A stretch of DNA of 64,000 bases. Origin: Rhizobiales bacterium PAR1. GTDB taxonomy: Bacteria > Pseudomonadota > Alphaproteobacteria > Rhizobiales > Beijerinckiaceae. Below are positions 4,842 through 51,473 of this stretch, one piece after another. The notes below the pieces were generated by a model. That model searched no databases, had not been told where the DNA came from, and was given only the letters and a program-made list of their open reading frames with translations. The stretch covers positions 186,001 to 250,000 of the forward strand of contig NKIW01000001.1 in NCBI GenBank assembly GCA_002256205.1, read 5' to 3'. The position numbers were made by a program, and so were the translations under genes. Position 1 is the stretch's first letter; each line of letters starts with the position of its first letter.

Positions 4842-5018
4842 TCCAGGGTCGGCGAAAAAAATCTGCCAGATTTGCCGTCCCCGGCGATGCGGAGTGGCGG
4901 CGAATCTTCGCCCCAGAGATTTGGCGCGAATGACTCATCCGCGCAACACTGTTGTTGGATTGCGACAATTCTGCGGCGGATAAGCCGCTCTGCACAAGGC
5001 CGGTCAGGGGCGTTGCAC

Positions 5019-6512
<1,494 letters not shown>

Positions 6513-6581
6513 ACCGTTTTGGCCCTCGTCTGTCTCGGGTGTCCTGTCCCAGATGTGGAACCGGATCGCCCGCAATGTCCG

Positions 6582-32673: not shown

Positions 32674-33549
32674 CTAACTCTCCCGCTTGATCGCGCTCTC
32701 ATGCCAGCGGAACAGCAGGCGATGGGCGATGTAGGAGGTGGCAAGAAAAATCGCAATTCCGGACATGGAAATCATCAGAAGCGCCGCAAACATGCGTGGA
32801 ATCTTGAGCTGATATCCCGATTCCAGAATGCGATAGGCTAAACCGGAAGCCGAACCGCCCGTCCCTGCAACAAATTCGGCCACAACCGCACCGATCAACG
32901 CCAATCCGCCAGAAATTTTTAGCCCGCTCAGAAAATACGGCAATGCTGCCGGCAAGCGCAGATAGCGCAGGGTCTGCCAGCGATTCGCGCCGTAAAGCTG
33001 GAACAGCGCGACAAGATTATGATCGGCGGAATTCAGTCCCATGATTGTGTTCGACAGGATCGGGAAAAACGCGACGATCCACGCGCAGATCAGCAGCGAG
33101 AGATTCACATCGCCAACCCAGATGATGATCAGCGGTGCAATCGAGACCACCGGCGTCACCTGAAGCACAATGGCATAGGGCAGCAGCGAGCGCTCCAGCC
33201 ACTTCGATTGCGTGAAGAGGATCGCCAATGCCACGCCAACACTCACCGCCGCAATCAACGCGGCAAAGGTGATCCGGAGCGTCACCCAGAGCGCGACAGA
33301 AAGCGTCGGCCAATCCGTAATCAGCGTTTGGAAGATAATCCCCGGTCCCGGCAGGATATAGGGCGGGATGCCCTTGAGCCGCACGATCCCCTCCCACACA
33401 GAAAGGAAGATCACGCCCATTGCCAGCGGCGCGAGAATGCCCGGCCAGCGACTCTTCGGCAGGCCGAGGACAGTCTCCTCCTGTGCATAGACTGGCGCGG
33501 CATCCTGATCGGTGCCTTTGGCGGAAGTCGGGGAGAGGTCAGTGCTCAT
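32674..33549 (-). CDS. ABC transporter permease (SsuC/ThiX type)
   Basis: A 291-residue permease of the nitrate/sulfonate/taurine/pyrimidine importer group with about six membrane segments. The EAA-type loop is NLVALFQLYGANRWQTLRYLRLPAALPYFLSGLKI, followed by GGLALIGAVVAEFVAG, both characteristic. An N-terminal ~35-residue polar tail precedes the first segment. The gene lies ten bases after the ATPase gene in one operon with the THI5-like binding protein. Family alone does not fix the substrate. Confidence 0.92.
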   Translation of the reverse strand: MSTDLSPTSAKGTDQDAAPVYAQEETVLGLPKSRWPGILAPLAMGVIFLSVWEGIVRLKGIPPYILPGPGIIFQTLITDWPTLSVALWVTLRITFAALIAAVSVGVALAILFTQSKWLERSLLPYAIVLQVTPVVSIAPLIIIWVGDVNLSLLICAWIVAFFPILSNTIMGLNSADHNLVALFQLYGANRWQTLRYLRLPAALPYFLSGLKISGGLALIGAVVAEFVAGTGGSASGLAYRILESGYQLKIPRMFAALLMISMSGIAIFLATSYIAHRLLFRWHESAIKRES

Positions 33550-33558
33550 ATCTTAGGC

Positions 33559-34374
33559 CTATGCGTCAATGGCGGCTTTGAGCGCCTCGGAACCAAGGCG
33601 GCACAGGTGGGCGTAATCCGCCGAGGTCCGGAAGAGGTTGTCACGCGGGAACGGCGCATCGACCATCACTTCACTCATCACGCGCCCCGGTCGCGCCGCC
33701 ATCACGACGACGCGCTGCGAGAGATAAACGCTCTCGAACACCGAATGCGTCACGAAGACCGCCGTGAAGCGGTTGCGCTCCCAGAGGGCGAGGAGATCGT
33801 CGTTGAGCTTATGCCGCGTGATTTCATCGAGCGCCGCGAAGGGCTCATCCATCAGCAGAACCTTCGGCTCGGTGACGAGCGCGCGGGCAATCGAAACGCG
33901 CATCTTCATCCCGCCCGAAAGTTCGCGCGGGTAGGATTTCTCGAACCCCTTGAGCCCGACGAGATCGAGCATCGCTGCCGCTCTGTCCCGCGCCTCGCCC
34001 GCATTCATATGCTTGAGGCGCAAGGGGAGTGTGACATTTTCCAACGTCGGCGCCCAGGGGAGAAGCGTCGGCTCCTGAAAGACAAAACCGAGGCTATGCT
34101 CCGGCTTGCCATAGGCATCGGCACTCTCCGCACCCGGCCAGTCGATTGTCCCGGCGCTCGGTGCGGAAAGATCGGAAATCAGGCGGAGCAGCGTCGATTT
34201 CCCACAGCCCGAGGGGCCAAGCAGGCTGACGAACTCGCCCGGGAAAAGGTCGAGATCGACATCCCGCAAGGCGAGCGTGCCGTTGGAGAATTTCTTGGAA
34301 AGGCCGCGCACCGAAACCAGCGGGCGCAGACCCGATGGCTTCGAGGCACTATTGACCATTGGGGCCGAACTCAA
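33559..34374 (-). CDS. ABC transporter ATPase (SsuB/ThiZ type)
   Basis: A 271-residue ATPase with Walker A LLGPSGCGKSTLLRLI near 54-70, Q-loop FVFQEPTLLPWAP, signature LSGGMKMRVSIARAL near 155, Walker B VLLMDEPFAALDEITR, and H-loop VFVTHSVFESVYLS. It is typical of the sulfonate/pyrimidine subclass. Its start overlaps the end of the binding-protein gene by four bases (ATGA) and the permease follows after ten bases, a tight three-gene operon. Confidence 0.94.
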   Translation of the reverse strand: MSSAPMVNSASKPSGLRPLVSVRGLSKKFSNGTLALRDVDLDLFPGEFVSLLGPSGCGKSTLLRLISDLSAPSAGTIDWPGAESADAYGKPEHSLGFVFQEPTLLPWAPTLENVTLPLRLKHMNAGEARDRAAAMLDLVGLKGFEKSYPRELSGGMKMRVSIARALVTEPKVLLMDEPFAALDEITRHKLNDDLLALWERNRFTAVFVTHSVFESVYLSQRVVVMAARPGRVMSEVMVDAPFPRDNLFRTSADYAHLCRLGSEALKAAIDA

Positions 34375-35387
34375 ATGCCGACGCCCTTGTTGATGAAATC
34401 AAGGTTGTAGGCCTTGGAGACATCGATATTCGCCGGGAAAACGCCCGTCGCCGCCATCTGGTCATAGAAGTTCTTCCAGCGCACATCTGTCATCGCGCCA
34501 AGCCCAAGCTTCAGCGCATCGCCAGAGAGAACAATGCCGCGCTCGGTCATGACTTTCAGCGCATAGGCGATCTTGTCGTCAGTCATGTCGGGATTGGCGG
34601 CCTTGATCAGTGCGTTGGCGGCAGCATTGCCTTCGCCACCCTTCATATAGGCGGCCCAGCCTTCGAGGGTCGCGTTGACGAAGCGCTGCACCACGTCCTT
34701 CTTCTCGGTCATCATCTTGCGGGAGATGTTGATCGTCGTGTTGTAGTTGTCGAAGCCAGCATCGGCGATGAGATGCACGAGCGGCTTAACGCCGCCTTCC
34801 TTCTCGATCGCGAACGGCTCGGAGGACAGGAAGCCCTGCTGGCAGACGCCCTTGTCGGCAAGGAACGGCGCCATGTTGAACGTATAGGGGCGGATCTGCT
34901 CGTCGGAATAGCCGAATTTCGCCTTCAGGAACGGCCAATACGAGGTGCGGCCCGCGCCGCCGACGAGGATCGGCTTGCCCTTGAGTTTGGTGAAATCGTC
35001 GTTCCCCTGCCCCGGGTGGCAGATAATGACCTGCGGGTCTTTCTGGAAGATCGAGGCGATGCAGAGGAACGGCAGGCTCTGTTCGACATAGCGGATCGCC
35101 TCGAAGGAGTTCGACATGATCATGTCGACCTGCCCGCCGAGGAGGAGCTGCGAGGGGTTCTGCTGCGGCCCGCCCATGCGGATATCCGCGTCAAGCCCGT
35201 ACTTTTTATAGATCCCGTTGGCGAGCGCGTAATAGAAGCCGCCATGTTCGGCCTGCGCGCGCCAGTTGGTGAGATAGCTGACCTTGTCGAGCGTCTGTGC
35301 GCGGGCGCTGCGCCCCGCAACTGGCACAAGTGTGGCTCCGCCGATCAAGCCGAGAGCCGCCCTGCGGTCGATGCGAAATGTCGTCAT
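34371..35387 (-). CDS. NMT1/THI5-like ABC transporter solute-binding protein
   Basis: A 338-residue periplasmic binding protein. A twin-arginine-like signal (IDRRAALGLIGGATLVPVAG, cleavage after ARAQ near 32) is followed by the family core: SYLTNWRAQAEHGGFYYALANGIYKKYGLD, GGPQQNPSQLLLGGQVDM, and KPILVGGAGRTSYWP. THI5-like proteins bind pyrimidines (HMP, formylaminopyrimidine) but also sulfonates and other small molecules. ATG 35387 gives the signal peptide; upstream in-frame residues are unlike it. The catabolic genes across the gap make a nitrogen-ring substrate attractive but unproven. Confidence 0.9.
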   Translation of the reverse strand: MTTFRIDRRAALGLIGGATLVPVAGRSARAQTLDKVSYLTNWRAQAEHGGFYYALANGIYKKYGLDADIRMGGPQQNPSQLLLGGQVDMIMSNSFEAIRYVEQSLPFLCIASIFQKDPQVIICHPGQGNDDFTKLKGKPILVGGAGRTSYWPFLKAKFGYSDEQIRPYTFNMAPFLADKGVCQQGFLSSEPFAIEKEGGVKPLVHLIADAGFDNYNTTINISRKMMTEKKDVVQRFVNATLEGWAAYMKGGEGNAAANALIKAANPDMTDDKIAYALKVMTERGIVLSGDALKLGLGAMTDVRWKNFYDQMAATGVFPANIDVSKAYNLDFINKGVGI

Positions 35388-35735
35388 GGTATCCCTCGCT
35401 CTTGTCTTTTTTGCTGTGCGCGATGCGCGATCCTGAAGGGACGAGCAACGGCTATGCCAGCCTGCCGCCGGGTCTCCCTTGGGCAAGCCGTTTGTCTTTT
35501 GATCACAATGCCTTTTCTAGGGCCATGTTGCCTAGAGGCAAGGCTCTCTCACGAACTTGCGATCAACAGGGAACTGCCGGCAACGAAATAGAAACCGTAA
35601 CGCGCGCTTTTCCGTCGCGCGACTGAACACACCCCGAAGAACGGGCAAAGGGTACGGCTTTCGAGGATCGGGTTAGGTCATTTTTTAATCAATTGTGGCC
35701 CTCTGAAACCCTGATCAGATTAACCGTATGAGTTC
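35388..35735. promoter_or_regulatory. 348-base divergent gap, THI5-like transporter / acyltransferase
   Basis: No gene is supported here. The region must carry promoters for both sides. An AT-rich patch at about 35680-35696 (CATTTTTTAATCAATTG) is a probable promoter core for one side. In the transporter leader ACGGCT and AGCCGT face each other across about 36 bases with AAGGGA/TCCCTT pairing possible, so the 5'UTR may fold. I checked for the thiamine-riboswitch hallmarks (CTGAGA plus ACCTGATCTGG-type) and do not find them together. Confidence 0.4.
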
Positions 35736-36884
35736 ATGGCACATTCCAGCGCACCAACCTTCGCTTCCGCCGGTCCGGAATCGGACACGGCATACAAGCC
35801 CTTGGCGTATCTCGCGCCAATGGATGGCCTGCGCGCACTGGCTGTCCTGCTGGTTCTCTGGAGCCACATTCCGTTCGTCCCGGAAATTCCCTTCACGAAG
35901 CTCTCGTGGGAAATCACCCAAAAGCTCTCGATCGGGTATTTCGGGGTCGATATCTTCTTCATTCTCAGCGGCTTCCTGATTACGAGAATTCTGCTGAACA
36001 CCCTCGAGAACGAAGGAAAAATCTCGCTCCGCACCTTCTATATCAAGCGGGCGATCCGGATATTCCCGGTCTACTACCTCTGCGTCCTGTTCTACGTGGC
36101 TTTCTTCGCCTTCGACGGGAGGAGCCTCGTCAGCCTGCTGACCTATTCGTTCAATTACTATCACGCGCTGCACCCGACCCCGCACCCGCTCGAGCACACC
36201 TGGTCTCTGGCTGTAGAAGAGCAGTTCTATCTCGTCTGGCCGTTTCTGGTGGCGATGATCCCGGCTGCGCGCGGCAAGCTGATCACCGGGCTTTTTATCC
36301 CGTCCTTGGCCGCAGCGCTTGCTCTTGCCTTTGCGACCCTGATGGAGGGAACCCTTGCTGGCGACATGATCTACATGTCGAGCCTGACCCGGATGATGTC
36401 GCTTTCGCTGGGCGCCTCGCTCGCCTACCGCGAAAACACGACGAGCAACCTGAGCCCGCAGCAAGCCTGCGGTATCATCGGTCTTGGCGTGAGCCTGCTG
36501 CTGCTTGATTTTGTACTCAGATCATTCCGGATCATTCCGGCAGCGGGGTATTTTCAGGCGTTTGCGCTGGTCGGTTTCGCCCTGCTGAGTTTCGGCGCCG
36601 TCGCTTTGCTGCTGTCCCCGGATAGCCGCCTGATGCAGAAGGCACAGAGCTTCCTGACCCTGTCACCGCTGCGTTATATCGGGCGAATCTCCTACGGGCT
36701 CTACCTCTATCACTATCTCCTGCTCTACGTTCTGGGTATCCAATTGGCGGAAACCGAGGCGAAGGGCGCTTCGGGCAGCACTGTTCTGGCCTTTATCGTC
36801 CTGACATTCGGTTTGGCAGCACTGTCGTTCCGATTCTTCGAGGAGCCGTTGCTGCGACTAAAAAGCCGTTTCGCACGCTCCTGA
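35736..36884 (+). CDS. Acyltransferase-3 family membrane protein (OafA/YrhL-like)
   Basis: A 382-residue integral membrane acyltransferase. Family hallmarks are LAPMDGLRALAVLLVLWSH near 24-43 (with R and H essential in the family), GYFGVDIFFILSGFLIT near 66, and HTWSLAVEEQFYLVWP near 155, then several hydrophobic segments up to RISYGLYLYHYLLLYVLG. Such proteins O-acetylate or otherwise acylate surface polysaccharides, lipids or antibiotics. No glycan genes are nearby, so its substrate is unknown. The C-terminal SGNH domain of OafA is absent. Ribosome-binding site is weak. Confidence 0.92.
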   Translation: MAHSSAPTFASAGPESDTAYKPLAYLAPMDGLRALAVLLVLWSHIPFVPEIPFTKLSWEITQKLSIGYFGVDIFFILSGFLITRILLNTLENEGKISLRTFYIKRAIRIFPVYYLCVLFYVAFFAFDGRSLVSLLTYSFNYYHALHPTPHPLEHTWSLAVEEQFYLVWPFLVAMIPAARGKLITGLFIPSLAAALALAFATLMEGTLAGDMIYMSSLTRMMSLSLGASLAYRENTTSNLSPQQACGIIGLGVSLLLLDFVLRSFRIIPAAGYFQAFALVGFALLSFGAVALLLSPDSRLMQKAQSFLTLSPLRYIGRISYGLYLYHYLLLYVLGIQLAETEAKGASGSTVLAFIVLTFGLAALSFRFFEEPLLRLKSRFARS

Positions 36885-36943: not shown

Positions 36944-38344
36944 ATGCGGAATGTCTCCATGAATGTTCACGCTACTCCCGGCAGCACCAGCCCCGCCGTT
37001 GACCCTGCCCGCATCACCGCACTCATCGCGGACCTCGGCGATATTCCGGTGATCACCGAGGAGAAAGTGGTGCGGAAAAGAAGCCGCGACTTCTTCTGGT
37101 ATTCGCCGATTCTCAACGAAGAGCTGTCCAAAAAGAGCGCCGACATCGTGGTTTTGCCGCGCAATGAGGCAGAGGTAATCCGGATCGCAGCAGCCTGCGC
37201 GAAGCATCGCATTCCCATCACGCCGCGCGGCGGGGCAACCGGCAACTACGGACAGGCCGTACCTCTTGAAGGCGGCGTATTGCTCGATCTCAATGCGCTC
37301 ACCGGCATCGAATGGGTCAAACCCGGTCATGTCCGGGTCGGCGCGGGGATGAATATCGGCAAGCTTGACGCCGAGCTTCGCCCGCAAGGCTGGGAGATGC
37401 GTATGCACCCCTCCACCAAGCGCACCGCGACCATCGGCGGCTTTGTCGCCGGCGGCTCGGGCGGTGTCGGCTCGGTGATGTATGGTGGCCTGCGCGAGCC
37501 GGGCAATATCCTCGCCGCGCGCATCGTCACGGTGGAGGAAACCCCGCGCGTCATCGAACTCCGGGGCGATGCGGCGCAGAAGATCAACCGCGCTTATGGC
37601 ACGACGGGCATCATCACCGCGCTCGAAATGCCGCTGGCGCCGGCCTACCCGTGGCTCGATGTCATCGTCGCTTTTGACGACTACAAGACATGCCTTGAAT
37701 TCGGGCGCGATGTCGCCCGCGCTGATGGCGTGATCAAGAAGCTGCTCTCGCCCATCGCAAGCCCGCTGCCGGAGTATTTCGGCCAGATGCGCGCGAACTG
37801 CCCGGACGGAAAGGCGATTCTCGTCGCAATGATTTCTGAGGCGTCGTTCGAAACCTTCTCGGATCTGATCGCCGGGCGCGGCACTATCACGCTCAAGGCG
37901 CCGACCGTCGAGGAACCGGGCCAGATCCCGGCCTACGAATTCACCTGGAATCACACGACGCTTCAGATGCTGAAGGTGGATCGCTCGATCACCTACCTTC
38001 AGTGTCTCTTCCCGCCGGATCGCTTCGTCGATACCATTCTCGATATGGCGGCGATGTTCCCGGACGAACTGATCCCGCATTGCGAATTCATCCGCTTCGG
38101 CGGACAGGTCACGTGCTCCGCCCTGCCCGTCATCCGCTACACGACGAAGGAGCGGCTTTATGAAATCATCGCTGCACACGAGGCCCATGGCGTGATGATC
38201 GCCAATCCCCATGTCGTGAGCCTGGAGGATGGCTCGCGCCACAAGCGCGCCGATGCTGACCAGATGGGCTTCAAGGCCGAGATCGACCCCTACGGCTTGC
38301 TCAACCCCGGCAAGATGCGCTCCTACATCCCTGTGAAAGCATGA
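36944..38344 (+). CDS. FAD-linked oxidase, first of two paralogues (GlcD-like, PCMH fold)
   Basis: A 466-residue FAD-dependent oxidase/dehydrogenase of the FAD_binding_4 superfamily. The FAD-binding region has ADIVVLPRNEAEVIRIAAAC, ITPRGGATGNYGQAVPL near 92, and HPSTKRTATIGGFVAGGSGGVGS near 145; the C-terminal domain ends DPYGLLNPGKMRSY, as in GlcD-type enzymes. N-terminal RSRDFFWYSPILNEEL is shared with the paralogue at 40051-41466. Function unknown: hydroxyacid or heterocycle oxidation are possible. The next gene overlaps its stop by four bases. An alternative start is ATG 36959. Confidence 0.88.
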   Translation: MRNVSMNVHATPGSTSPAVDPARITALIADLGDIPVITEEKVVRKRSRDFFWYSPILNEELSKKSADIVVLPRNEAEVIRIAAACAKHRIPITPRGGATGNYGQAVPLEGGVLLDLNALTGIEWVKPGHVRVGAGMNIGKLDAELRPQGWEMRMHPSTKRTATIGGFVAGGSGGVGSVMYGGLREPGNILAARIVTVEETPRVIELRGDAAQKINRAYGTTGIITALEMPLAPAYPWLDVIVAFDDYKTCLEFGRDVARADGVIKKLLSPIASPLPEYFGQMRANCPDGKAILVAMISEASFETFSDLIAGRGTITLKAPTVEEPGQIPAYEFTWNHTTLQMLKVDRSITYLQCLFPPDRFVDTILDMAAMFPDELIPHCEFIRFGGQVTCSALPVIRYTTKERLYEIIAAHEAHGVMIANPHVVSLEDGSRHKRADADQMGFKAEIDPYGLLNPGKMRSYIPVKA

Positions 38345-38928
38345 GAATTCTCTATCTCTACTGCCACCCGCTGGATGACAGTTTCCACGCTGCGATCCGC
38401 GATGCCGGCATCGCAGCGCTGCGCGCGAACGGCCATGACGTTGATCTATGCGACCTCTACGCGGAAGGCTTTCAGCCCGTGCTCACCGCCGAGATGCGGC
38501 GTGAGTATCACGACACCAGCCTCAACCGGAAAGGCATCGAGGGTTATGTCGAGCGCCTCCATGCCGCCGAGGGCATGGTGGTGCAATTTCCGACATGGGC
38601 GTTTGGTTTCCCGGCGATGCTTAAGGGCTATTTCGACCGGCTCTTCTCCCCGGGGATCACGTTTGATCTCACCGACCCGGCGCATGTGAAGCCCCTGCTC
38701 CCGAAACTCCGGAGCGTCACCGGCATTTCGACCTATGGCCGCCCGCGGCTTCAGGCGCTGTTTGTCGGCGATCCACCGCGCAAGATGATCACGCGGTATC
38801 TGCGCTGGTACGCTGGCGCGCGTGCCCGCATCCGCTATCTCGCGCTCTATCACATGAATGTCGCCACTGAAGCGCAGCGGAAGGCCTTTCTGGCGCGCGT
38901 TTCGACCGAACTCTCCCAGATCCGCTGA
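38341..38928 (+). CDS. NAD(P)H-dependent flavodoxin-fold oxidoreductase (KefF/MdaB-like)
   Basis: A 195-residue flavodoxin-like NAD(P)H:quinone oxidoreductase. It starts with MRILYLYCHPLDDSFHAAI (FMN/FAD phosphate-binding HPxxxSF pattern), continues with VVQFPTWAFGFPAMLKGYFDRLFSPG near 80-105, which is the family signature, and has GISTYGRPR. Start overlaps the oxidase stop (ATGA), so the two are translationally coupled. A role as electron-transfer or ring-reduction partner of the oxidase is inference from context. Confidence 0.9.
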   Translation: MRILYLYCHPLDDSFHAAIRDAGIAALRANGHDVDLCDLYAEGFQPVLTAEMRREYHDTSLNRKGIEGYVERLHAAEGMVVQFPTWAFGFPAMLKGYFDRLFSPGITFDLTDPAHVKPLLPKLRSVTGISTYGRPRLQALFVGDPPRKMITRYLRWYAGARARIRYLALYHMNVATEAQRKAFLARVSTELSQIR

Positions 38929-38934
38929 GGCATC

Positions 38935-39723
38935 ATGCGCAAAACCCACTGGTACGACCTGACCGCCCGCGATTTTGCCGCCCTCGACAAGGAGCGGACC
39001 ATCGCGGTGCTCCCCATTGCCGCGACCGAACAGCACGGCCCGCATCTCTCCGTGGGGACGGATTCGATCATCGCCGGCGGCATGATCGAGGAAGTCACGA
39101 GGCGCCTGCCGGAAGCGCTTTCAGTTCTGTTCCTGCCGATCCAGATGATTGGCAAATCGAACGAGCACCTGCGGTCGCCCGGCACCATCACGCTTTCGGC
39201 GGAAACACTGATCCGCGCCTGGACCGAGATCGGCGAGAGCGTCGCCCGGGCGGGCATCAGGAAACTGGTGATCGTCAATTCCCACGGCGGCAATGTCGAG
39301 ATCATGGGCATTGTCGCGCGCGAATTGCGCGTCCGCTGCGGGATGCTGGTTGCGCAATGCGCCTGGCGGCGGCTCGGTGTGCCGCAGGGCCTGTTTTCGG
39401 ATACCGAGAACAATTTCGGCATCCACGGCGGCGATTTCGAGACCTCGGTGATGCTGCATTTCGCGCCGGACCGCGTACGCAAGGACAAGGTGGCGGATTT
39501 TGTCCCCAAGTCGATCCAGATGACGAAGGATTACACCCAGCTCCGCATGACCGGCTTCACCTCGATGGCGTGGATCGCCGAGGACAATCACCCCGAGGGA
39601 GTCGCCGGTGAAGCCCATCTCGCGACAGCGGAAAAGGGCGCGAAAGCCGCGGAATTTCAGGCGCTGCGCTTCATCGAACTGTTGCAGGACGTGGCGAAGT
39701 TTCCGCTTGAGGATTTGGCTTGA
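38935..39723 (+). CDS. Creatininase-family hydrolase
   Basis: A 262-residue member of the creatininase superfamily of metal-dependent amide and cyclic-amide hydrolases. Metal-binding segments are visible: AATEQHGPHLSVGTDSI near 29-45 (Glu, His and Asp ligands), IVNSHGGNVEIM near 115, and GIHGGDFETSVML near 158, where the usual HAGExETS reads HGGDFETS. Besides creatininase, the family has formamide hydrolases of flavin/deazaflavin and sugar-ring hydrolases, so the reaction is open. It follows the flavodoxin-fold gene by six bases. Confidence 0.92.
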   Translation: MRKTHWYDLTARDFAALDKERTIAVLPIAATEQHGPHLSVGTDSIIAGGMIEEVTRRLPEALSVLFLPIQMIGKSNEHLRSPGTITLSAETLIRAWTEIGESVARAGIRKLVIVNSHGGNVEIMGIVARELRVRCGMLVAQCAWRRLGVPQGLFSDTENNFGIHGGDFETSVMLHFAPDRVRKDKVADFVPKSIQMTKDYTQLRMTGFTSMAWIAEDNHPEGVAGEAHLATAEKGAKAAEFQALRFIELLQDVAKFPLEDLA

Positions 39724-40046
39724 TCAACGCGCTCTTTGTTTGTTCTGCGAACAAGCTTCGCAGCCCGACAGCTGAACAAGTCTTCTCGACATACAACGGC
39801 GTGGAGACGGACTCTGCCGGTCTGCTGGAAACGGCTGATACCCGCCTCTCTCCTGAGCAAATCGAATGGTCGGACATCATTTTCGTGATGGAAAAGCGTC
39901 ACCGTTCGAAGCTATCGAAACAGTTCAAACGCTACCTGAACGGCAAGTGGATCATCTGTCTCGAAATACCGGACGAGTACGAATACATGCAACCGGAACT
40001 AGTCGCGCTATTGGAGCGGAAAGCCGGACCATTCCTCCGCCGCTGA
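39720..40046 (+). CDS. Small tyrosine-phosphatase-like protein (low-molecular-weight PTP fold)
   Basis: A 108-residue protein resembling predicted low-molecular-weight tyrosine phosphatases (COG4551-like). The P-loop CX5RS is intact at the N-terminus: ALFVCSANKLRSPTAEQVF, and a downstream SDIIFVMEKRHRSKL matches the family helix. It starts with TTG, overlapping the creatininase stop as TTGA. It is shorter than classical LMW-PTPs (about 150). Role in this operon is unclear; it ends four bases before the converging second oxidase. Confidence 0.82.
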   Translation: MINALFVCSANKLRSPTAEQVFSTYNGVETDSAGLLETADTRLSPEQIEWSDIIFVMEKRHRSKLSKQFKRYLNGKWIICLEIPDEYEYMQPELVALLERKAGPFLRR

Positions 40047-40050
40047 GCCC

Positions 40051-41466
40051 TCACCCCAACCCGCCGCCCAACCCCTTGAAAAGAAAGTTCTTCCCCGCCT
40101 TGAAATCATAATCAGGGTCTTCCCATGCAATCATCTTGCCGGGGTTCAGAAGGCCTTGCGGGTCAGCCTCGCGTTTGAAGGCAAGCTGCGCCTCGTCCGT
40201 CTGCTTCATGCCGCCCTCTTCGAGCGTGTAGCGGTGCGGGTTGAAGATCGGCGCGCCCATATCCTCATGGATGGCCATGATCTCTTCGAGCCGTTCCTCA
40301 GTGGTGAACTTCACCATCGGCAGGCCAAAGCACGTCACCTTGCCGTCGAAGCGCACGAATTCGAGGTGGCAGGCGACCTCATCACCAAATTTCGCATTGA
40401 TCTTCTCGACAAGTCCGATCTGGTTCGGGAACGGGTAGAGCACCTGCAAATAGGTGATTTTCGGATCAACCCGCAATGCACGCAACGTGGTGTGGTTCCA
40501 CGAGAGTTCGAACACCGGCGGCAGGCCCTTGGCCGCCTCTTCGCTGAGGGTATCCGATCGCATCAGCACCTCGGCGCCCTTCCAGCGCGCGGTGAAGGCG
40601 AGCAACGGGTGTAGTGCGAAATCCGCAACCATGATCAGCACGACATGCTTGTCGCGTGGCAGAAGTTTTTTATGCCGCAGGAACGTGTCATGCGGCGCAG
40701 GCGCGGCAACAACCCCAAGCTCCTTGAGCAGCAGCCCATCTTGCTCGCCAAGGGCATTCGCAAATTCACTCGCGCGTCGCAAATCATCAAAGCCGACAAT
40801 CAGATCGACCCAGGGGTAAGCGGTTGCCAGCGGCACCTCGCATTCCGTGATGATGCCGTTGGTGCCATAGGCATGCGCGACTTTCAGAAGATCATCGCCG
40901 GAGAGTTCGAGCACACGTGGGCTCGCCTCCATGGTCATCACTTTCATGCGGATGATGTTGCCGTAATCCCGAAGGCCGCCCCAGCGGATTGAGCCGATTC
41001 CTCCCGAACCACCGGCAATGAAGCCGCCGATGGTCGCGGTGTGATAGGTCGAGGGATGAAGCCGCAATTCCTGCCCGGATTTCGCGCGCGTCTCATGATC
41101 GATTTCGGAGAGGATCGCACCCGGACCGGTCACAACGCGTCCCGGCGCGATGGATTTGACCGCCTTCAGCGCCGAAAGGTCGAGCACCACACCGCCGGAA
41201 AGCGGCATCGCCTGCCCGTAATTTCCAGTCCCCGTACCGCGCGGCGTCACCGGAATGCCGAGGCGGTGGCACTCGCCGAGCACCGTTAAGAGCTCCTCTT
41301 CATTCGTGGGAATGACGATGAGGTTGCCGACAACAGCGTCGAGCTGGCGCTTCAGCGTTGGCGAATACCAGTAGAAGTCACGGCTCTTCTGCTTCAGAAT
41401 CGCCGGATTATCATCGGTTCTGATGGCGCCAAGGCGGGCCTTAAGCGTTGCGATATCATGCGGCAT
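40051..41466 (-). CDS. FAD-linked oxidase, second of two paralogues (GlcD-like)
   Basis: A 471-residue paralogue of the oxidase at 36944-38344, sharing KSRDFYWYSPTLKRQL, VTPRGTGTGNYGQAMPLSGGVVLDLSAL, LRLHPSTYHTATIGGFIAGGSGGIGS and DPQGLLNPGKM. By eye the two share close to half their residues across the FAD domain, so they are clearly related but not recent copies. It lies eight bases after the amidohydrolase gene, in one operon. The presence of one paralogue in each of two converging operons suggests two similar oxidation steps or two related substrates. Confidence 0.88.
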   Translation of the reverse strand: MPHDIATLKARLGAIRTDDNPAILKQKSRDFYWYSPTLKRQLDAVVGNLIVIPTNEEELLTVLGECHRLGIPVTPRGTGTGNYGQAMPLSGGVVLDLSALKAVKSIAPGRVVTGPGAILSEIDHETRAKSGQELRLHPSTYHTATIGGFIAGGSGGIGSIRWGGLRDYGNIIRMKVMTMEASPRVLELSGDDLLKVAHAYGTNGIITECEVPLATAYPWVDLIVGFDDLRRASEFANALGEQDGLLLKELGVVAAPAPHDTFLRHKKLLPRDKHVVLIMVADFALHPLLAFTARWKGAEVLMRSDTLSEEAAKGLPPVFELSWNHTTLRALRVDPKITYLQVLYPFPNQIGLVEKINAKFGDEVACHLEFVRFDGKVTCFGLPMVKFTTEERLEEIMAIHEDMGAPIFNPHRYTLEEGGMKQTDEAQLAFKREADPQGLLNPGKMIAWEDPDYDFKAGKNFLFKGLGGGLG

Positions 41467-41474
41467 GTGAAATC

Positions 41475-42800
41475 CTAGAGTCCGTCGAGTTCAGCATATT
41501 CGGGCAGCGGTGCGTCGATCGCCTTGCCGTTGATCAGCACCAGCCGATCGGTCTGCGGGCGGCACAGAAACTCATTCATTGTCCGCGCCGAGAAGATCAC
41601 AAGGTCTGCTGCAGCACCGACCTTGATCCGCCCCTTCTCGGGCATTCGCATCTGAGCGGCGGGTCGGGTGGTCAGCGTCTCCAGCCACGGCCGTGCAGAG
41701 TGGTCAAAATGCAGGATGCGCGTCGCCTCGCGGAAGACCTCAACCCCGTCGAGATCGCCATAGGCATAGAACGGATCGCGGGTGTTGTCGGAGGCGACCA
41801 TCGTGGAAACGCCAGCCGAATCAAGCTCATGCAGTGGCGCGACCCCACGCCAGCGCGGCGTGATGCCCGCCTGCCGGTCTTGCAGATACATGTTGCACAT
41901 CGGCAGCGACACAACATTGAGCCCCGCCTCGGCCAGTTTTCCGGTGACGCGTTTGCGATCCTCATCACTCATCAGCGCGAGTGAGCAACAATGACCCGCA
42001 AGCGCCTTGCCCTTGAATTTGTGGCGGATCAGCGCATCCGCGATCACCTCAAGGCTGCGCGCATCGGGCGAATTCGATTCATCGACGTGGAAATCAAGGT
42101 CGAGTCCGTCTGTTTTCGCCACACCGACCATCTTGTCGAGCGCGGCTTCGAGCTTGGCATCGGGTGCTTCGCCGAGAAACGTCACCGCTCCGAGAATGCC
42201 CTGATAACGGCTCACAGTCGCGACGAGCTTTTCGAATTCATCAGGGTTATCCATCACATTGACGATGGGCATCAGGCAGACAGCCTGAAGCGCGATGCGG
42301 CCATGCCATTCGGAACGCATCTCGTCGAACACCGGCCAGGAGATGCCGATCTGTTTGCCAATGCTGTCGAGATGCGTGCGGATCGCGCCTGTGCCGTGAT
42401 GCAAGGCCGAACGCAGTGCGAAATCCATTCGCGCCTGCACATCCTCGGCGGTCCAATACGCCTCGCGGTCGCGCCCAACAGTCTCGCGCGCGCCGAAAAA
42501 CGTCCCATCCGGGTTCGGCGCGCGACGGAACACATGGCCCTTGTCGAGATGGGTGTGGATATCGATGAGACGCGGCAGCACCAGCCGCTTGCCACCGGGC
42601 AGATGCGGAACACCGTCCTGCGGGGCGGCACCGACCACGACCTCGGCGATTTTGCCGGCCTCGATCAGCAGTGAGGCTTTGACAAGCCCATCACGGCTTG
42701 TTTCGGGCGGATCATCGCCGGAAAAGTCGGTGATCGCCGCCGGCAGACTGACACCATCGAGCCAATAGCGCACAAGCCGTGGTGGAACCTCAAACTGCAC
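41475..42800 (-). CDS. Cytosine-deaminase-like amidohydrolase
   Basis: A 441-residue amidohydrolase-superfamily enzyme near CodA. Metal and catalytic motifs are clear: RLIDIHTHLDKGH near 77-89 (HxH), LDFHVDESNSPDAR near 232 (His and Glu), ALAGHCCSLALM near 262, and STMVASDNTRDPFYAYGD near 325 with the metal-binding Asp. The C-terminal composite-domain region has VGAAADLVIFSARTMNEFL. Relatives deaminate cytosine, isoguanine, isocytosine or other rings. It is the first gene of the minus-strand operon with the second oxidase, opposite to the Rid-family gene. Confidence 0.9.
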   Translation of the reverse strand: MQFEVPPRLVRYWLDGVSLPAAITDFSGDDPPETSRDGLVKASLLIEAGKIAEVVVGAAPQDGVPHLPGGKRLVLPRLIDIHTHLDKGHVFRRAPNPDGTFFGARETVGRDREAYWTAEDVQARMDFALRSALHHGTGAIRTHLDSIGKQIGISWPVFDEMRSEWHGRIALQAVCLMPIVNVMDNPDEFEKLVATVSRYQGILGAVTFLGEAPDAKLEAALDKMVGVAKTDGLDLDFHVDESNSPDARSLEVIADALIRHKFKGKALAGHCCSLALMSDEDRKRVTGKLAEAGLNVVSLPMCNMYLQDRQAGITPRWRGVAPLHELDSAGVSTMVASDNTRDPFYAYGDLDGVEVFREATRILHFDHSARPWLETLTTRPAAQMRMPEKGRIKVGAAADLVIFSARTMNEFLCRPQTDRLVLINGKAIDAPLPEYAELDGL

Positions 42801-43041
42801 GCTTCTCTCCCTGATCTATCTTCGCCGGCGCCAGACCGAATTCACCTTGATCCCAAATCGCCTTGATCTGAAGCAAACCCGATTCCATTCTTCACGGGAA
42901 GTCCAGCGCATCTATCTTGGCGCCCCGGAAGCATTTTCAAGCGAAGTGGGCGCCGGTTCGCGTGAAGAAAATGCGACAGAAAAAAGCAGAGCGTTTTTCG
43001 ACGAATGGAAATTCGGAGAAAATACACCGAAAGGAATGAGA

Positions 43042-43428
43042 ATGGCCGCCACCCCTATTAATCCCGGTGCGATCCGTGCGCCATTTGCGGCTTATTCTCA
43101 TGCCGTGGTTGTCGATACGCCCAAGCGGATGCTCTTTGCCTCCGGGCAACTTGGCGTTTCGCCTGACGATGTTATCCCCGAGGATATCGAAGCGCAGGCC
43201 GTGCTCTGCTTCGAGAATATCCGCGCGATCCTCGCCGAGGCAGGGATGGATTTCTCCCATGTCGTACGCTTCACCGCTTTTGTGACCGACAGGGCGTATT
43301 TTCCCGTTTATGGCGCGGTCAGAAGCCGCTATGTCAGCGGCAACGCTTTTTCCTCGACGCTCGTCATTGCCTCTGGCTTTACCCGCCCTGAATTCAAGGT
43401 GGAGGTCGAGGTGACGGCGGTCGCCTGA
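43042..43428 (+). CDS. Rid-family (YjgF/YER057c/UK114) protein lacking the catalytic arginine
   Basis: A 128-residue Rid-superfamily protein: AAYSHAVVVDTPKRMLFASGQLGVSPDD, then QAVLCFENIRAILAEAGMDFSHVVRFTAFVTD and KVEVEVTAVA at the end. True RidA enzymes hydrolyse imines using an arginine (R105 of E. coli RidA, in PARSCVEV). The matching segment here reads FSSTLVIA, with Ser at that position, so it is not a RidA-subfamily imine deaminase and belongs with Rid groups of other function. ATG 43042 is chosen for its AAGGA site; the frame is open upstream but unlike the family. rimO follows after 15 bases. Confidence 0.88.
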   Translation: MAATPINPGAIRAPFAAYSHAVVVDTPKRMLFASGQLGVSPDDVIPEDIEAQAVLCFENIRAILAEAGMDFSHVVRFTAFVTDRAYFPVYGAVRSRYVSGNAFSSTLVIASGFTRPEFKVEVEVTAVA

Positions 43429-46786: not shown

Positions 46787-47869
46787 TTACTTCGGAATCG
46801 TGCCTTCGATGCCCTGCACGTAAAAATTCATGCTGGCGATCTGGCCGTCATTGAGCTTGCCGTCCTTGCATTCCACGGCCTTGCCGTCCTGCGCAATGAT
46901 CGGGCAGGTGAACGGGTCGATCTTGCCTGTCCGGATACCTTCTTCGGTCTCCATCGCGAGCTTTTTCACGTCATCCGGCATATTGACATAGGGACCCATC
47001 ACGACCTTGCCCTTGGCAAGACCGTCGAACACGTCCTGGCTCTGCCACTTGCCTTCGAGCACGGCACGCGTGCGCTCGACGTAATACGGCGCCCAGTTGT
47101 CAATGATCGAGGTCAGGATGTTCTTCTCGGCGAACTTCGACATATCCGAGGCCTGACCGAAGGCATACTTGCCACGCGCAGCTGCCTGCTGGAGCGGCGC
47201 CGGGCTATCCGTGTGCTGGGTGATGATATCCGCACCCTGATCCATCAGGGCCTTGGCGGCATCGCCTTCCTTGCCCGGATTGAACCAGTCGAACGCCCAG
47301 GCCACCTTGATCTTCACATCCGGATTAACCGACTTCGCGCCGAGATAGAACGCGTTGATGCCCGCGACCACTTCCGGGATCGGCATCGAGCCGACGTACC
47401 CGATCGTGTTCGACTTCGTCAGCTTGCCCGCGATCTTGCCGATGATGAAGCGGCCTTCGTGGAACTTCGCCGAATAGGTCGAAACGTTCTTCTCGCGCTT
47501 GAAGCCGGTCGCGTGCTCGAACATCACATTCGGATACTTCTTCGCGACTTTCAGCGTCGGCTCCATGTAGCCGAACGAGGTCGTGAAGATCAGCTTGTGG
47601 CCGGTCCGGGCGAGCTGCTCGATCGAACGCTCGGAATCGGCTTCCGGCACGTTCTCGATGAAGGTCGTCTCGACCTTGCCCGGGAACGCGGCTTCAATCG
47701 CCTTGCGGCCGACATCGTGCTGATAGGACCAGCCGAAATCGCCGACCGGACCGACATAGATAAAGCCTACCTTGAGCTTTTCCTGCGCCATGGCCGGGCT
47801 CGCGAGCCCCAAGGCCAGCGCGAAGGCACCCAGTGTGATGGATGCAAATTTACCGGATGAAATAGACAT
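46787..47869 (-). CDS. BMP-family ABC transporter solute-binding protein
   Basis: A 360-residue basic-membrane-protein-family binding protein, the group that delivers nucleosides and related compounds to YufO-PQ-type importers. Signal peptide 1 to about 28 (cleavage after AMA, before QEKLKVG; no lipobox cysteine). Mature features are VGFIYVGPVGDFGWSYQHDVGRKA, IFTTSFGYMEPTLKVAKKYPNVMFEHATG, and AWAFDWFNPGKEGDAAKALMDQGADIITQHTDSP, all typical. Last gene of a five-gene unit (qor-like, ATPase, two permeases, BMP). Confidence 0.94.
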   Translation of the reverse strand: MSISSGKFASITLGAFALALGLASPAMAQEKLKVGFIYVGPVGDFGWSYQHDVGRKAIEAAFPGKVETTFIENVPEADSERSIEQLARTGHKLIFTTSFGYMEPTLKVAKKYPNVMFEHATGFKREKNVSTYSAKFHEGRFIIGKIAGKLTKSNTIGYVGSMPIPEVVAGINAFYLGAKSVNPDVKIKVAWAFDWFNPGKEGDAAKALMDQGADIITQHTDSPAPLQQAAARGKYAFGQASDMSKFAEKNILTSIIDNWAPYYVERTRAVLEGKWQSQDVFDGLAKGKVVMGPYVNMPDDVKKLAMETEEGIRTGKIDPFTCPIIAQDGKAVECKDGKLNDGQIASMNFYVQGIEGTIPK

Positions 47870-47949
47870 GTGCCTTCCCCAAAATGCTGCGCGATGTCAT
47901 CAACCCTCGCGCGCCACGCTCCGCGACACGAGGTGAGTTTCTTCTTGTT

Positions 47950-48870
47950 CTATCGCTCCGGCACAAACGGTTGCCCGAGCGACCCCGCAGCCCCTGCGCC
48001 CTTTCGGCCCGAAAGCGAAAGCACCAGCAGCGCCGCGATGGTCATAAGATACGGTAGCGCCGAAAGCAGTTGCGAGGGAAGTGCGATTGCACCAGCCTGC
48101 GCATGAAGCTGTGCAACTGTGATGCCGCCGAAAAGATAAGACCCCAGCACCAGCCGCCAAACATGGCCGGCAGCGAAAACCACCAGCGCCAGCGCGATCC
48201 AGCCGCGCCCGGCGCTCATACCCGGCGACCAGAAGCGGGTGTAGATCAGCGAGAGATAAGCCCCAGCAAGGCCCGCCATCAGCCCGCCAAACAGGATCGC
48301 CCAGAAGCGCAGTTTGCGCACAGGCAAACCAAGCGCGTGCGCGGAAACATGATTTTCACCGACGCTCCTGAGCAGCAGCCCGATACGGGTGCGGTTGAGC
48401 ACGAAGGCCACCAGCACGATCAGAATGAGCGAGAGGAAAAACACCACATCGCCCGTGAAGATCGCCTTGCCGAGCAGTGGAATGTCCTTCAACACCGGAA
48501 TTTCAATCGGCGGGATCGCCGCGCGCGGCTGACCGACGAAATCCTGCCCGATGAGGCCCGCAAGACCCAAACCGAGAATGGTCAGTGCGAGGCCGGTCGC
48601 GACCTGATTGGTGGCAAAAAACACCACCATCACGCCGAACAAGGCCGAAAGCGCCATGCCCGCCAGCGCCCCGGCCAGCAGGCCGACCACCGAGGAATCG
48701 GTGAGTACGGCAACGGCGAAACCTGTCGCTGCGCCGACGATCATCATGCCCTCGACGCCGAGGTTGAGGATGCCCGCACGCTCGACGACATGTTCGCCAA
48801 GCGCCGCGATGAGCAGCGGCGTGGCGGCGGTCATGACGGTCGCGATGATAAGAGGAAGCGTATCGATCAT
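47950..48870 (-). CDS. BMP-associated ABC transporter permease (second)
   Basis: A 306-residue branched-chain-type permease with about eight to nine membrane segments, like YufQ. Typical features are AALGEHVVERAGILNLGVEGMMIVGA near 22-48 and RSVGENHVSAHALGLPVRKLRFWAILFGGLMAGLAGAYL near 170-210. It forms a heteromeric channel with the permease encoded just upstream; 15 bases separate the two genes. The BMP binding-protein gene follows after 80 bases. Confidence 0.93.
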   Translation of the reverse strand: MIDTLPLIIATVMTAATPLLIAALGEHVVERAGILNLGVEGMMIVGAATGFAVAVLTDSSVVGLLAGALAGMALSALFGVMVVFFATNQVATGLALTILGLGLAGLIGQDFVGQPRAAIPPIEIPVLKDIPLLGKAIFTGDVVFFLSLILIVLVAFVLNRTRIGLLLRSVGENHVSAHALGLPVRKLRFWAILFGGLMAGLAGAYLSLIYTRFWSPGMSAGRGWIALALVVFAAGHVWRLVLGSYLFGGITVAQLHAQAGAIALPSQLLSALPYLMTIAALLVLSLSGRKGAGAAGSLGQPFVPER

Positions 48871-48885
48871 GGGGTCAGCCTCGCA

Positions 48886-49959
48886 TCATGCGCCGTCCCG
48901 GCGGATTTCCAGCCGGTAACGGTTGAGGGTCTCGCCGAGGAGCACGCACATCAGCAGCAGCCCCATGAAGAAACGGGTGAGATCGAACGGCAATTTCAGT
49001 GTCACCTGCGCGCTCTCTGCGCCGATCAGCAGCACCGCGATGACAATCGCCGAGAGCGCCGCGCCGACGGGCGAGAGCCGCCCGAGGAACGCAACGATAA
49101 TCGCGGTGAAGCCTAGCCCCTGCCCGAAGCCGGGCCGGAGTTGTCCCACCTGCCCCGACACCTCGATCACGCCCGCAAGCCCTGCGAGCGCACCGGAAAT
49201 GAGGAAGACCAGCACCGTGATCCGGCTCTCGTTGAAGCCGGCGAAATTCGCGGCGCGCGGCGCATCGCCGCTTGCGGAAACCGCAAAGCCGAAGAGCGTC
49301 CGCCGGAAGAGCACGAAGGCCACCGCGACGGCGATCAGCGCCAGCACAAGACCGGCGTGCAGCCGTCCGCCTTCGAACAGCGGTTGGAGCACGGCGGAAT
49401 CGGAGAAGGCAACACTCTGCGGGAAATTATAGCCCTTGGGGTCGCGCCAAGGCCCCCGCACGAGATAATCGAGCAGGAATTCGGCGATATAAACCAGCAT
49501 TAGCGACGTCAGGATTTCGGAAATCCCAAAGCGCGTCCGGAGCAGTGCCGGGATTGAGGCATAGACGAGCCCGCCGATGGCCCCGGCGATCAGCATCAGC
49601 GGCAGGATCCAGAACCCGCTCATGCCGTGGGTGAGGATCGCGACGCCACCGCCACAAATGCCGCCGAGCAGGAACTGGCCCTCGGCGCCAATATTCCAGC
49701 GGCTAGCGCGGAAGCAGAACAACAGGCCGATCGCGATCAGGATCAGCGGCGTTGCCTTCAGCAACACCTCCTGCATGGCCCAGGGGTCGGTCAGCGGTTC
49801 GCGGATGAACACGTTAAACGCCGTCACGGGCGATTTGCCCATCAGCGCGACAATCGCGCCGCCGATCAGCACGGCAACAAGCAGCGCCGCCACCGGCGTC
49901 AGGAACTGTCGCAGCGGCGTAACCGTGCGGCGGGGAACAAGGGCGAGGTGGAAGCTCAT
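48886..49959 (-). CDS. BMP-associated ABC transporter permease (first)
   Basis: A 357-residue permease of the YufP type. Membrane segments start near 21; diagnostic stretches are LLFCFRASRWNIGAEGQFLLGGICGGG near 80-105, ALLRTRFGISEILTSLMLVYIAEFLLDYLVRGP and VSASGDAPRAANFAGFNESRITVLVFLISGALAGLAGVIE. Start overlaps the ATPase stop by four bases (ATGA). Confidence 0.93.
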   Translation of the reverse strand: MSFHLALVPRRTVTPLRQFLTPVAALLVAVLIGGAIVALMGKSPVTAFNVFIREPLTDPWAMQEVLLKATPLILIAIGLLFCFRASRWNIGAEGQFLLGGICGGGVAILTHGMSGFWILPLMLIAGAIGGLVYASIPALLRTRFGISEILTSLMLVYIAEFLLDYLVRGPWRDPKGYNFPQSVAFSDSAVLQPLFEGGRLHAGLVLALIAVAVAFVLFRRTLFGFAVSASGDAPRAANFAGFNESRITVLVFLISGALAGLAGVIEVSGQVGQLRPGFGQGLGFTAIIVAFLGRLSPVGAALSAIVIAVLLIGAESAQVTLKLPFDLTRFFMGLLLMCVLLGETLNRYRLEIRRDGA

Positions 49960-51473
49960 ATGTGGGCCCCTTCCCCATGCTCGCGGTGCGTCATCATCAT
50001 GCCGATCGCTTCGCGCGTGACGTCGTGCACGCGCTGGGCTGGCGAAAGCTCGCCCTCCCGCATCACAACAATGAAGTCCGCCAGCATCAACGCTTCATCG
50101 AGGTCTTGGGTGATCACAAGAACCGCCGTGCCTTGCCCGGCTAGATCGATTAGCGTCTGGCGGATATGCGTCGCGGCGCGCGCATCGACGCCCCAGCTCG
50201 GTTGATCAATCACGATCAGCTTCGGATTGCGCTTCACCTCACGCCCGACGATGTATTTCTGGAGATTGCCGCCCGAGAGCTGCGCCGCGAGCGGATCCGG
50301 CGAAGGCACGCGCACGTCGAAGCGCTGGATGATATCGCCAGCGACATCCATCAGCCGCCCCTTGTCGATGAACAGCCCGCCGATCTTCTCGGTGGCGTGC
50401 CAGGAGAGGACAATGTTGTCCGAAAGCGCGGTCTGCGGCAGCGTCGCCTGCCCGAGCCGCGCCTCCGGCACGAAGGCCGCCCCGGCGCGGCGGCGCGCGT
50501 TGATATCCGCTGCGGTCACATCCCGACCGGCGATGCGGATCGTCCCGCTGGTGACGGTACCGCCCTCACCGGAAATCGCGGCGTAAAGTTCGCTCTGACC
50601 ATTGCCTGCGACGCCCGCGATGGCGACAATCTCGCCCGCGCGTACGCTGATGCTGGCTTCGCTGAGGCGCACACCATGGATCGATTCCGCTTCGACCGTC
50701 AGTTTTGTGCATTCAAGCACCGCTTCGCCATAGGAATGCGCAGCGGCGGCCCGCAAATCGATCACCCCGTCGCCGACCATCAGACCCGCAAGTTCACGCG
50801 CCGAGACCGCGCGCGGATCAGCCTCCGCGACAACGCGGCCCGCGCGCAGGACGGTGGCAGCGGTGCAGAGCCGACGCACCTCTTCCAGCTTGTGGCTGAT
50901 GAAGAGCAGGCTCGCGCCTTCCGCCGCCAGCTTGTCGAGCGTTTTGAATAGCGCCTCGCTTTCGGAAGGTGTGAGAACCGAAGTCGGCTCATCGAGGATG
51001 AGCAGTTTCGGATCCTGCATCAATGCCCGCAGGATCTCGATGCGCTGCCGCTCGCCGGCAGAAAGCGTATAAACCGGGCGATCCAGATCAATCGCGAGGC
51101 CGAAATGCTCGGCCTTTGCGCGCACTTTCTCGCGTAACGCCTTGTCCGCCACCGCCCCTTCGAGCGGAATGGCGATGTTTTCGAGCGCCGTGAAATCCTC
51201 GAACAGCGAGAAATGCTGGAACACCATACCGATGCCGCGCGCACGCGCCTCGCGTGGCGAGGACAACGTGACCACCTCGCCGTTGATGCGGATTTCACCC
51301 GAGTCCGGCGAGAGCAGCCCGTAGAGGATTTTCACCAGTGTTGATTTGCCGGCGCCGTTTTCGCCAAGGAGGGCATGAATCTCGCCAGCATGCAGCTTAA
51401 GATCAATCGAAGAATTGGCCATGAGTGCGCCAAAATACTTCGTGATCCCGCTCAGTCTGACTAGTTCACCCAT
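49956..51473 (-). CDS. BMP-associated ABC transporter ATPase (double NBD)
   Basis: A 505-residue double ATPase like RbsA/YufO. The first domain has canonical motifs: LLGENGAGKSTLVKILYG, signature LSAGERQRIEILRAL and LLILDEPTSVL. The second is degenerate, as in this family: Walker A reads GVAGNGQSE without the lysine and Walker B VIDQPSWGVDA has Gln at the catalytic Glu position; its signature LSGGNLQKYIVG is retained. It follows the quinone oxidoreductase gene by 30 bases and overlaps the first permease. Confidence 0.94.
   Translation of the reverse strand: MGELVRLSGITKYFGALMANSSIDLKLHAGEIHALLGENGAGKSTLVKILYGLLSPDSGEIRINGEVVTLSSPREARARGIGMVFQHFSLFEDFTALENIAIPLEGAVADKALREKVRAKAEHFGLAIDLDRPVYTLSAGERQRIEILRALMQDPKLLILDEPTSVLTPSESEALFKTLDKLAAEGASLLFISHKLEEVRRLCTAATVLRAGRVVAEADPRAVSARELAGLMVGDGVIDLRAAAAHSYGEAVLECTKLTVEAESIHGVRLSEASISVRAGEIVAIAGVAGNGQSELYAAISGEGGTVTSGTIRIAGRDVTAADINARRRAGAAFVPEARLGQATLPQTALSDNIVLSWHATEKIGGLFIDKGRLMDVAGDIIQRFDVRVPSPDPLAAQLSGGNLQKYIVGREVKRNPKLIVIDQPSWGVDARAATHIRQTLIDLAGQGTAVLVITQDLDEALMLADFIVVMREGELSPAQRVHDVTREAIGMMMTHREHGEGAHI

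Follow-up and report, generated by a model that had tools for sequence, protein, structure and literature searches.

Which compound does a bacterium break down when two operons, each with its own flavoenzyme, run into each other tail to tail? The question is raised by positions 36944-43428 of a 64,000-nucleotide stretch (hereafter, the window) of the 4.2 Mb genome of Rhizobiales bacterium PAR1 (contig NKIW01000001.1, positions 186,001 to 250,000). Two paralogous flavoenzyme genes, here called oxA and oxB, lie there with genes for a flavodoxin-fold reductase, a creatininase-family hydrolase, a cytosine-deaminase-like amidohydrolase and a Rid-family protein, close to an ATP-binding cassette (ABC) importer. 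We report that this cluster is a real, conserved and linked unit, and that its gene sets probably serve the uptake and breakdown of a ring compound that contains nitrogen. The reading that we favor, with some reserve, is a catabolic island for a pterin or other folate-derived ring compound in which two paralogous modules meet tail to tail. The genes concerned are:

32674..33549, minus strand: permease of the ABC importer (Pfam BPD_transp_1)
33559..34374, minus strand: ATPase of the ABC importer (Pfam; linkage as for the permease)
34371..35393, minus strand: NMT1/THI5-like substrate-binding protein (Pfam NMT1, 81.1 bits, scanned as 34371-35486)
36944..38344, plus strand: oxA, FAD_binding_4 flavoenzyme, putative flavin oxygenase and old paralog of oxB (Pfam, match to PDB entry 6V42, tree)
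38341..38928, plus strand: Flavodoxin_2 NAD(P)H oxidoreductase that may serve the oxygenases as flavin reductase (Pfam)
38935..39723, plus strand: creatininase-superfamily metal hydrolase, putative cyclic-amide or ring-opening hydrolase (Pfam PF02633, 237.7 bits)
40051..41466, minus strand: oxB, predicted flavin oxygenase and probable ortholog of 6V42 (FAD_binding_4, identity, tree)
41475..42800, minus strand: cytosine-deaminase-like amidohydrolase with an altered substrate pocket (Pfam Amidohydro_3/1, NCBIfam NF005759)
43042..43428, plus strand: Rid-family protein without Arg105 of RidA (Pfam Ribonuc_L-PSP; alignments)

An initial annotation of the window had placed the open reading frames (ORFs) of the enzymes in two tight converging operons with a divergent Rid gene. 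All of them are present, and coordinates, overlaps and gaps were verified, the one correction being the start of the Rid gene, for which ATG at 43042 (128 amino acids) is preferable to TTG at 42847. On the plus strand, oxA overlaps the flavodoxin gene by 4 bases, a gap of 6 bases leads to the creatininase gene, and this in turn overlaps a small phosphatase-like ORF by 4 bases; on the facing strand, the amidohydrolase gene is followed by oxB after 8 bases. Four bases separate the two operon ends (40046 and 40051).

oxB is a close relative of a flavin oxygenase deposited as folate-catabolic

The initial annotation had proposed structure modeling of both oxidases and the amidohydrolase. For oxB, an AlphaFold2 model (mean predicted local distance difference test score, pLDDT, 78.7; predicted template modeling score, pTM, 0.80; pLDDT under 50 at 410-421 and 445-471) has as its top match in the PDB entry 6V42, with 66% identity, a template modeling (TM) score of 0.90 and E 3.8e-61. 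This entry, released 2020-12-02, is titled "Crystal structure of the flavin oxygenase with cofactor bound involved in folate catabolism"; 6V43 has the same sequence. Compared by sequence, oxB and 6V42 align over their full length (E 4.3e-209), and in a tree of 32 rows 6V42 and all 17 oxB rows fall on one side of a branch (100/100), with oxA on the other. The 6V42 chain is there the sister of Mesorhizobium caraganae (100/100), and its 25 closest matches, 73-77% identical, come where named from loci of Mesorhizobium or other Rhizobiaceae, most of which hold the full block. The closest named relatives of oxB itself are Rhizobiales bacterium SYSU XM002 and Rhabdaerophilum sp. SD176. We regard oxB as a close relative and probably an ortholog of 6V42, with a predicted role as an oxygenase of a folate-derived pterin. 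Because oxB is so closely related to an enzyme deposited as part of folate breakdown, we infer that the substrate of the cluster is most likely the pterin of folate.

Both oxidases had been described as GlcD-like. They reach 79.0 (oxA) and 69.8 (oxB) bits against the GlcD equivalog cut-off of 567.9, over their N-terminal part only, and on these scores a glycolate oxidase function was rejected. One oxB match, in genome G007 (locus L016; we number genomes G and loci L), is listed with one internal TGA.

The cluster is a conserved, linked unit

Linkage was counted in 80 named loci, the best 80 of 580 confirmed matches by oxB similarity, a set that is rich in Mesorhizobium and Bosea and whose members are not independent; a gene was counted when present anywhere in the locus (bit score 100 or more), adjacent or not. 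Of the 80 loci, 20 fall below 21 kb in length. The amidohydrolase accompanies oxB in 76 of them, a reductase homolog joins the pair in 73, all three ABC genes in 51, the Rid gene in 46 and the creatininase gene in 40, each figure including the preceding genes. With the loci under 21 kb set aside, 60 remain, and in these the same cumulative series reads 60, 59, 41, 38 and 33.

A second count covers 99 relatives (the window genome and fragment G049:C33 left out), with oxygenases assigned to an oxA (A) or oxB (B) type by bit score; Fisher tests on these genomes ignore relatedness, and a contig-end fragment of G095 is counted as A, yet scores best to oxB in another comparison. oxB occurs in 31 of these genomes, in 30 of which the amidohydrolase gene lies 18-169 bp away. 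The co-occurrence check suggested with the initial annotation was thereby passed, and its proposal of a linked catabolic cluster for a nitrogen heterocycle is supported by the linkage. Outside the genus of the window, the amidohydrolase is present in 18/19 oxB genomes as against 26/83 genomes overall, and an oxB- or oxA-like gene is present in 34 of the 38 relatives with the amidohydrolase. In a sample of 299 genomes of the phylum, the oxA/oxB alignment finds a match at E 1e-80 in 22, counting the genome of the window.

The neighborhood is common to many Rhizobiales, and modified versions of it occur on plasmids from Rhodobacterales and Enterobacterales. In its Rhizobium and Mesorhizobium versions the THI5-like importer, creatininase-family and Rid genes are joined in one block. 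At E 1e-60, oxB-like genes are found in 140 plasmid records, of which Rhizobium accounts for 109, and the four Rhizobium plasmids that were read share one order: creatininase, LysR, importer, amidohydrolase, oxB, reductase, Rid. Altered, related blocks with oxA-like oxygenases are found on plasmids of Agrobacterium, Alloyangia, Ruegeria, Klebsiella and Pantoea. Further shared neighbors are mostly antisense shadow ORFs, with one family in 8/18 sampled loci that is MarR-like in Bosea.

Two plasmid copies have neighbors of their own. On R. etli CIAT 652 pC (L119) the block is flanked by genes annotated as urea amidolyase, amidase, isochorismatase hydrolases and allophanate hydrolase, a set that would be in keeping with nitrogen release from a ring product; on R. 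johnstonii 3841 pRL12 (L124), a xanthine-dehydrogenase-type molybdenum hydroxylase set (3905-8686) adjoins the block at its creatininase gene.

oxA and oxB are old paralogs from two modules

That the two oxidases are paralogs, as first proposed, is borne out by a FAD_binding_4 domain in both and by 45% identity. A tree of 48 rows, which like the 32-row tree is labeled by best-scoring query, is rooted at the midpoint and has long branches for several oxA-side rows, places them across one branch (100/100) with several families on each side. oxA also matches 6V42, at E 9.2e-136. On this evidence oxA and oxB are best described as old paralogs from two modules and not as a recent duplication, oxA being a paralog of the 6V42 side and not a member of the 6V42-type oxygenases.

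Residue conservation was read from rows above a score cut (amidohydrolase 350, creatininase 240, Rid 95, oxB 500, oxA 600 bits); these cuts exclude divergent homologs, for example those of Klebsiella and Pantoea, and some genomes appear twice. A comparison of 111 oxB with 15 oxA rows gives 90 columns with the same conserved residue in both and 8 in which each side conserves a residue of its own: D167/E185, H198/R216, N203/T221, P335/R347, G381/A393, F408/A420, R412/V424 and M420/R432 (oxB/oxA numbering), where R412 and M420 of oxB fall in low-pLDDT regions of the model. Because charges are swapped at conserved columns, this pattern suggests that oxA and oxB act on different substrates or intermediates.

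We take the island to be composed of a module A (importer, oxA, reductase, creatininase) and a module B (amidohydrolase, oxB, reductase), the place of the importer in A being the weaker part of this division. Among the 99 relatives, a creatininase gene lies within 1.7 kb of 17/25 oxA-like matches, 11 of those 17 from the genus of the window. In genus relatives a second reductase gene sits downstream of oxB (for instance at 2913-3503 of L009); this gene is absent from the genome of the window, where the copy of G008 (L009) is matched best by the oxA-linked reductase, with 39% identity. Of 16 genus genomes, 12 have both oxygenases, and the two stand side by side in three other loci from metagenome-assembled genomes (MAGs; L058, L059, L066). 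In G043 (L129), oxA is found together with amidohydrolase, Rid, creatininase and ABC genes, with no oxB at the threshold used; therefore the same sort of partner set can serve either oxygenase. In G030, G042, G053 and G078, A- and B-type oxygenases are on separate contigs or far apart. One further arrangement was seen in G035, where amidohydrolase, reductase, importer and Rid genes are together without oxB (L139) and oxA and the creatininase gene are elsewhere in the same genome (L128).

The hydrolases and the Rid protein depart from their labels

The amidohydrolase is the only cluster protein over a curated NCBIfam cut-off, passing the "cytosine deaminase" model NF005759 with 563.5 bits (cut-off 403). 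It shares its family and metal-site residues with AtzC and with E. coli cytosine deaminase (CodA, PDB 1K6W), and its metal and catalytic residues H82, H84, H238, E241, H270 and D338 are found in 112/112 rows. It departs from CodA in the pocket. CodA has Gln156 and Asp314, which we take to contact cytosine, whereas the cluster enzyme has I179 and N339 at these positions, with Ile, Val or Leu in 99 of the 112 rows at the former and Asn in every row at the latter. Given these two changes, the function of an ordinary cytosine deaminase, which the initial annotation had invited, was rejected.

The creatininase-family protein keeps E32, H34, D43, H117 and E169 invariant in 62/62 rows and has the superfamily and the E/H/D/H residues in common with creatininase (PDB 1J2T, 3A6E). 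Where creatininase reads NGHYEN, the cluster hydrolase reads NSHGGN, with Gly for Glu in all 62 rows. Its 88.5 bits place it at the superfamily level only, far under the creatininase equivalog cut-off of 235, and creatinine breakdown was rejected on that score.

In the Rid protein of the window, S or T stands at the aligned place of RidA Arg105, and the sequence S-T-L replaces the arginine in 64/64 cluster Rid proteins. In the available part of one source, this residue is described as critical in RidA, and the Rid4-7 subfamilies, which do not have it, as showing no deaminase activity so far (PMC8113886). A RidA-type deaminase was rejected on the strength of this replacement, and the cluster Rid would represent a conserved non-RidA type. 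Because the amidohydrolase pocket, the creatininase score and the Rid arginine all deviate, the common labels of several cluster genes probably mislead; the names suggested to do so here are GlcD, cytosine deaminase, creatininase and RidA.

Importer and neighboring genes

Pfam confirms that a THI5-like and a BMP-type importer flank the operons, as the initial annotation had it. The THI5-like importer (32674-35393) belongs to the cluster system, and homologs of it accompany oxA in L131 and L132 and oxB in many Rhizobiales loci. The binding protein of the window scores 574 and 568 bits against the copies beside oxA in L131 (G030) and L132 (G078), 271-372 bits against those of loci with oxB but without oxA, only 292 bits against the copy beside oxA in L129 (G043), and 35-258 bits against those beside plasmid oxA-like genes. 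By overall similarity it is distantly related to ThiY and THI5, and it is a probable importer of the ring compound or of a breakdown product. In two members of the genus (L140 in G009, L141 in G014), the creatininase gene adjoins an NMT1-type binding protein, with no oxB or amidohydrolase at the thresholds used.

Three further features lie within or beside the operons:

35736-36884: Acyltransferase_3 gene between the importer and oxA
39720-40046, plus strand: protein-tyrosine-phosphatase (PTP)-like ORF of 108 amino acids with a CX5R stretch (LMWPc weak, 27.2 bits against a cut-off of 23.2)
46787-51473: BMP-type importer, a neighbor in the genus of the window

For membership of the PTP-like gene and the BMP importer, both listed in the initial annotation, there is little sign. 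The former has a match in 3/80 named loci and the BMP binding protein in 4/80 (L038-L041, the places of the genus genomes G002, G012, G001 and G015), in both cases, among the named loci, within the genus of the window only; on these counts both were rejected as pathway parts, and they are probably not part of the cluster. Near the copies of R. etli (L119) and Labrys (L080, L111) there are BMP-type genes as well, perhaps by chance. The end of oxB is 4 bases from that of the PTP-like ORF, at the place where relatives carry the extra reductase gene. The acyltransferase gene has a match in 0/80 named loci, as far as the loci reach.

A model for the island and its rivals

In the model that we propose, the THI5-like importer would take up the substrate and the flavodoxin-fold NAD(P)H reductase would deliver reducing power, reducing the flavin. 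oxB and oxA would then use O2 to oxidize or open the ring, each acting on an intermediate of its own that is related to that of the other; the order of the steps and an oxygenase reaction of oxA are predictions of the model. The amidohydrolase and the creatininase-family hydrolase would take amino groups off the ring or hydrolyze cyclic amides; a side role at a reactive or side-product step may fall to the Rid protein. A bolder version, possible but doubtful, is that the two long-separate oxygenase modules joined in this genus represent two successive O2-dependent steps on the pterin ring, in a near-complete route from folate pterin to simple nitrogen compounds; if true, the proteins of this route would number among them an amidohydrolase with a new specificity and a Rid protein outside the RidA type. 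With its paired oxygenases and hydrolases, its importer and its Rid protein, the conserved block offers directly testable enzymes.

Several observations weigh against a pterin island of two modules. The word folate comes from the title that a depositor gave to one enzyme, and searches of the open literature found no paper for 6V42. None of the 14 PDB matches of the amidohydrolase is named as a pterin deaminase, the names being cytosine deaminases, AtzC and one hydantoinase, and the cluster Rid does not have the arginine of RidA chemistry. Identity between oxA and oxB is about that of several plasmid homologs (38-45%), and beside at least one of these, in Agrobacterium, no amidohydrolase is annotated. 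Linkage also has its exceptions: among the 99 relatives, four of the 38 amidohydrolase genomes (G021, G029, G085, G093) have no oxA- or oxB-like match at the threshold and the oxB genome G071 has no amidohydrolase match, while Bosea retains only amidohydrolase, oxB and reductase near each other.

The compound could instead be another nitrogen heterocycle (a pyrimidine, a hydantoin, a thiamine pyrimidine or a xenobiotic), with the folate label of 6V42 not transferable or naming one of several substrates. The distant solved relatives of the importer include ThiY and THI5, which handle thiamine pyrimidine precursors, the nearest PDB relatives of the amidohydrolase are cytosine deaminase and AtzC, and the degradative genes beside the R. 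etli copy and the hydroxylase beside the R. johnstonii copy would be at home there too. We nonetheless think this rather unlikely, with oxB 66% identical to, and grouped with, an enzyme deposited as folate-catabolic; moreover, no thiamine-salvage family is among the Pfam matches of the window, a statement for the window and not from a search of the genome. It is also unlikely, to a slightly greater degree, that the two operons merely face each other by chance and that modules A and B serve different substrates. The four genomes with distant A- and B-type oxygenases point that way, as do the eight differing columns and an importer nearer to the oxA-side copies of L131 and L132 than to those of oxB-only loci; on the other side stand the joint presence of both oxygenases in most genus genomes, their adjacency in three MAG loci and the replacement of oxB by oxA in the full partner set of G043. 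A set of housekeeping or detoxification genes with no common pathway (a GlcD-like oxidase, a stress Rid, a quinone reductase) draws on the breadth of each family and on the single curated cut-off passed, that of the amidohydrolase. The tight packing of the genes and a linkage kept in many lineages, plasmids included, largely refute it, and we consider it highly improbable.

Comparison with known pathways

The pterin island that we favor follows the same N-heterocycle-opening logic as the Rut uracil pathway of E. coli, which, in the available text of its descriptions, combines an oxygenase and reductase (RutA/RutF), a hydrolase (RutB) and a Rid protein (RutC) (PMC8113886; PMC7662398). The families differ, the cluster using FAD_binding_4, Flavodoxin_2, cytosine-deaminase-like and creatininase proteins and an ABC system for import. 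The cluster Rid scores 30.6 bits against the RutC model (cut-off 169.1), and no RutA or RutB model is among the matches of the window proteins, the part of the genome that this search covered. Bacterial folate breakdown is also known from the carboxypeptidase G and pterin deaminase route of Variovorax sp. F1 and Arad3529, which uses a cyclic-amidine deaminase (PMC9513972); in the main text of that source on the Variovorax route, the words oxidoreductase, xanthopterin and gene cluster are absent. A paper on riboflavin catabolism does not, in its available text, mention folate, creatininase, cytosine deaminase or RidA (PMC12746152).

The nearest known system is the flavin oxygenase 6V42/6V43 itself, with which oxB shares the fold, the full length of the alignment and the side of the tree, oxA standing on the other side. 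The initial annotation had called the cluster undescribed, which is half right: with oxB grouped with the folate-titled 6V42, it is not wholly so. The two-module form is a variant whose key enzyme already has a solved, folate-labeled relative, and new features include the joining of the oxA and oxB modules in this genus and in three other MAG loci.

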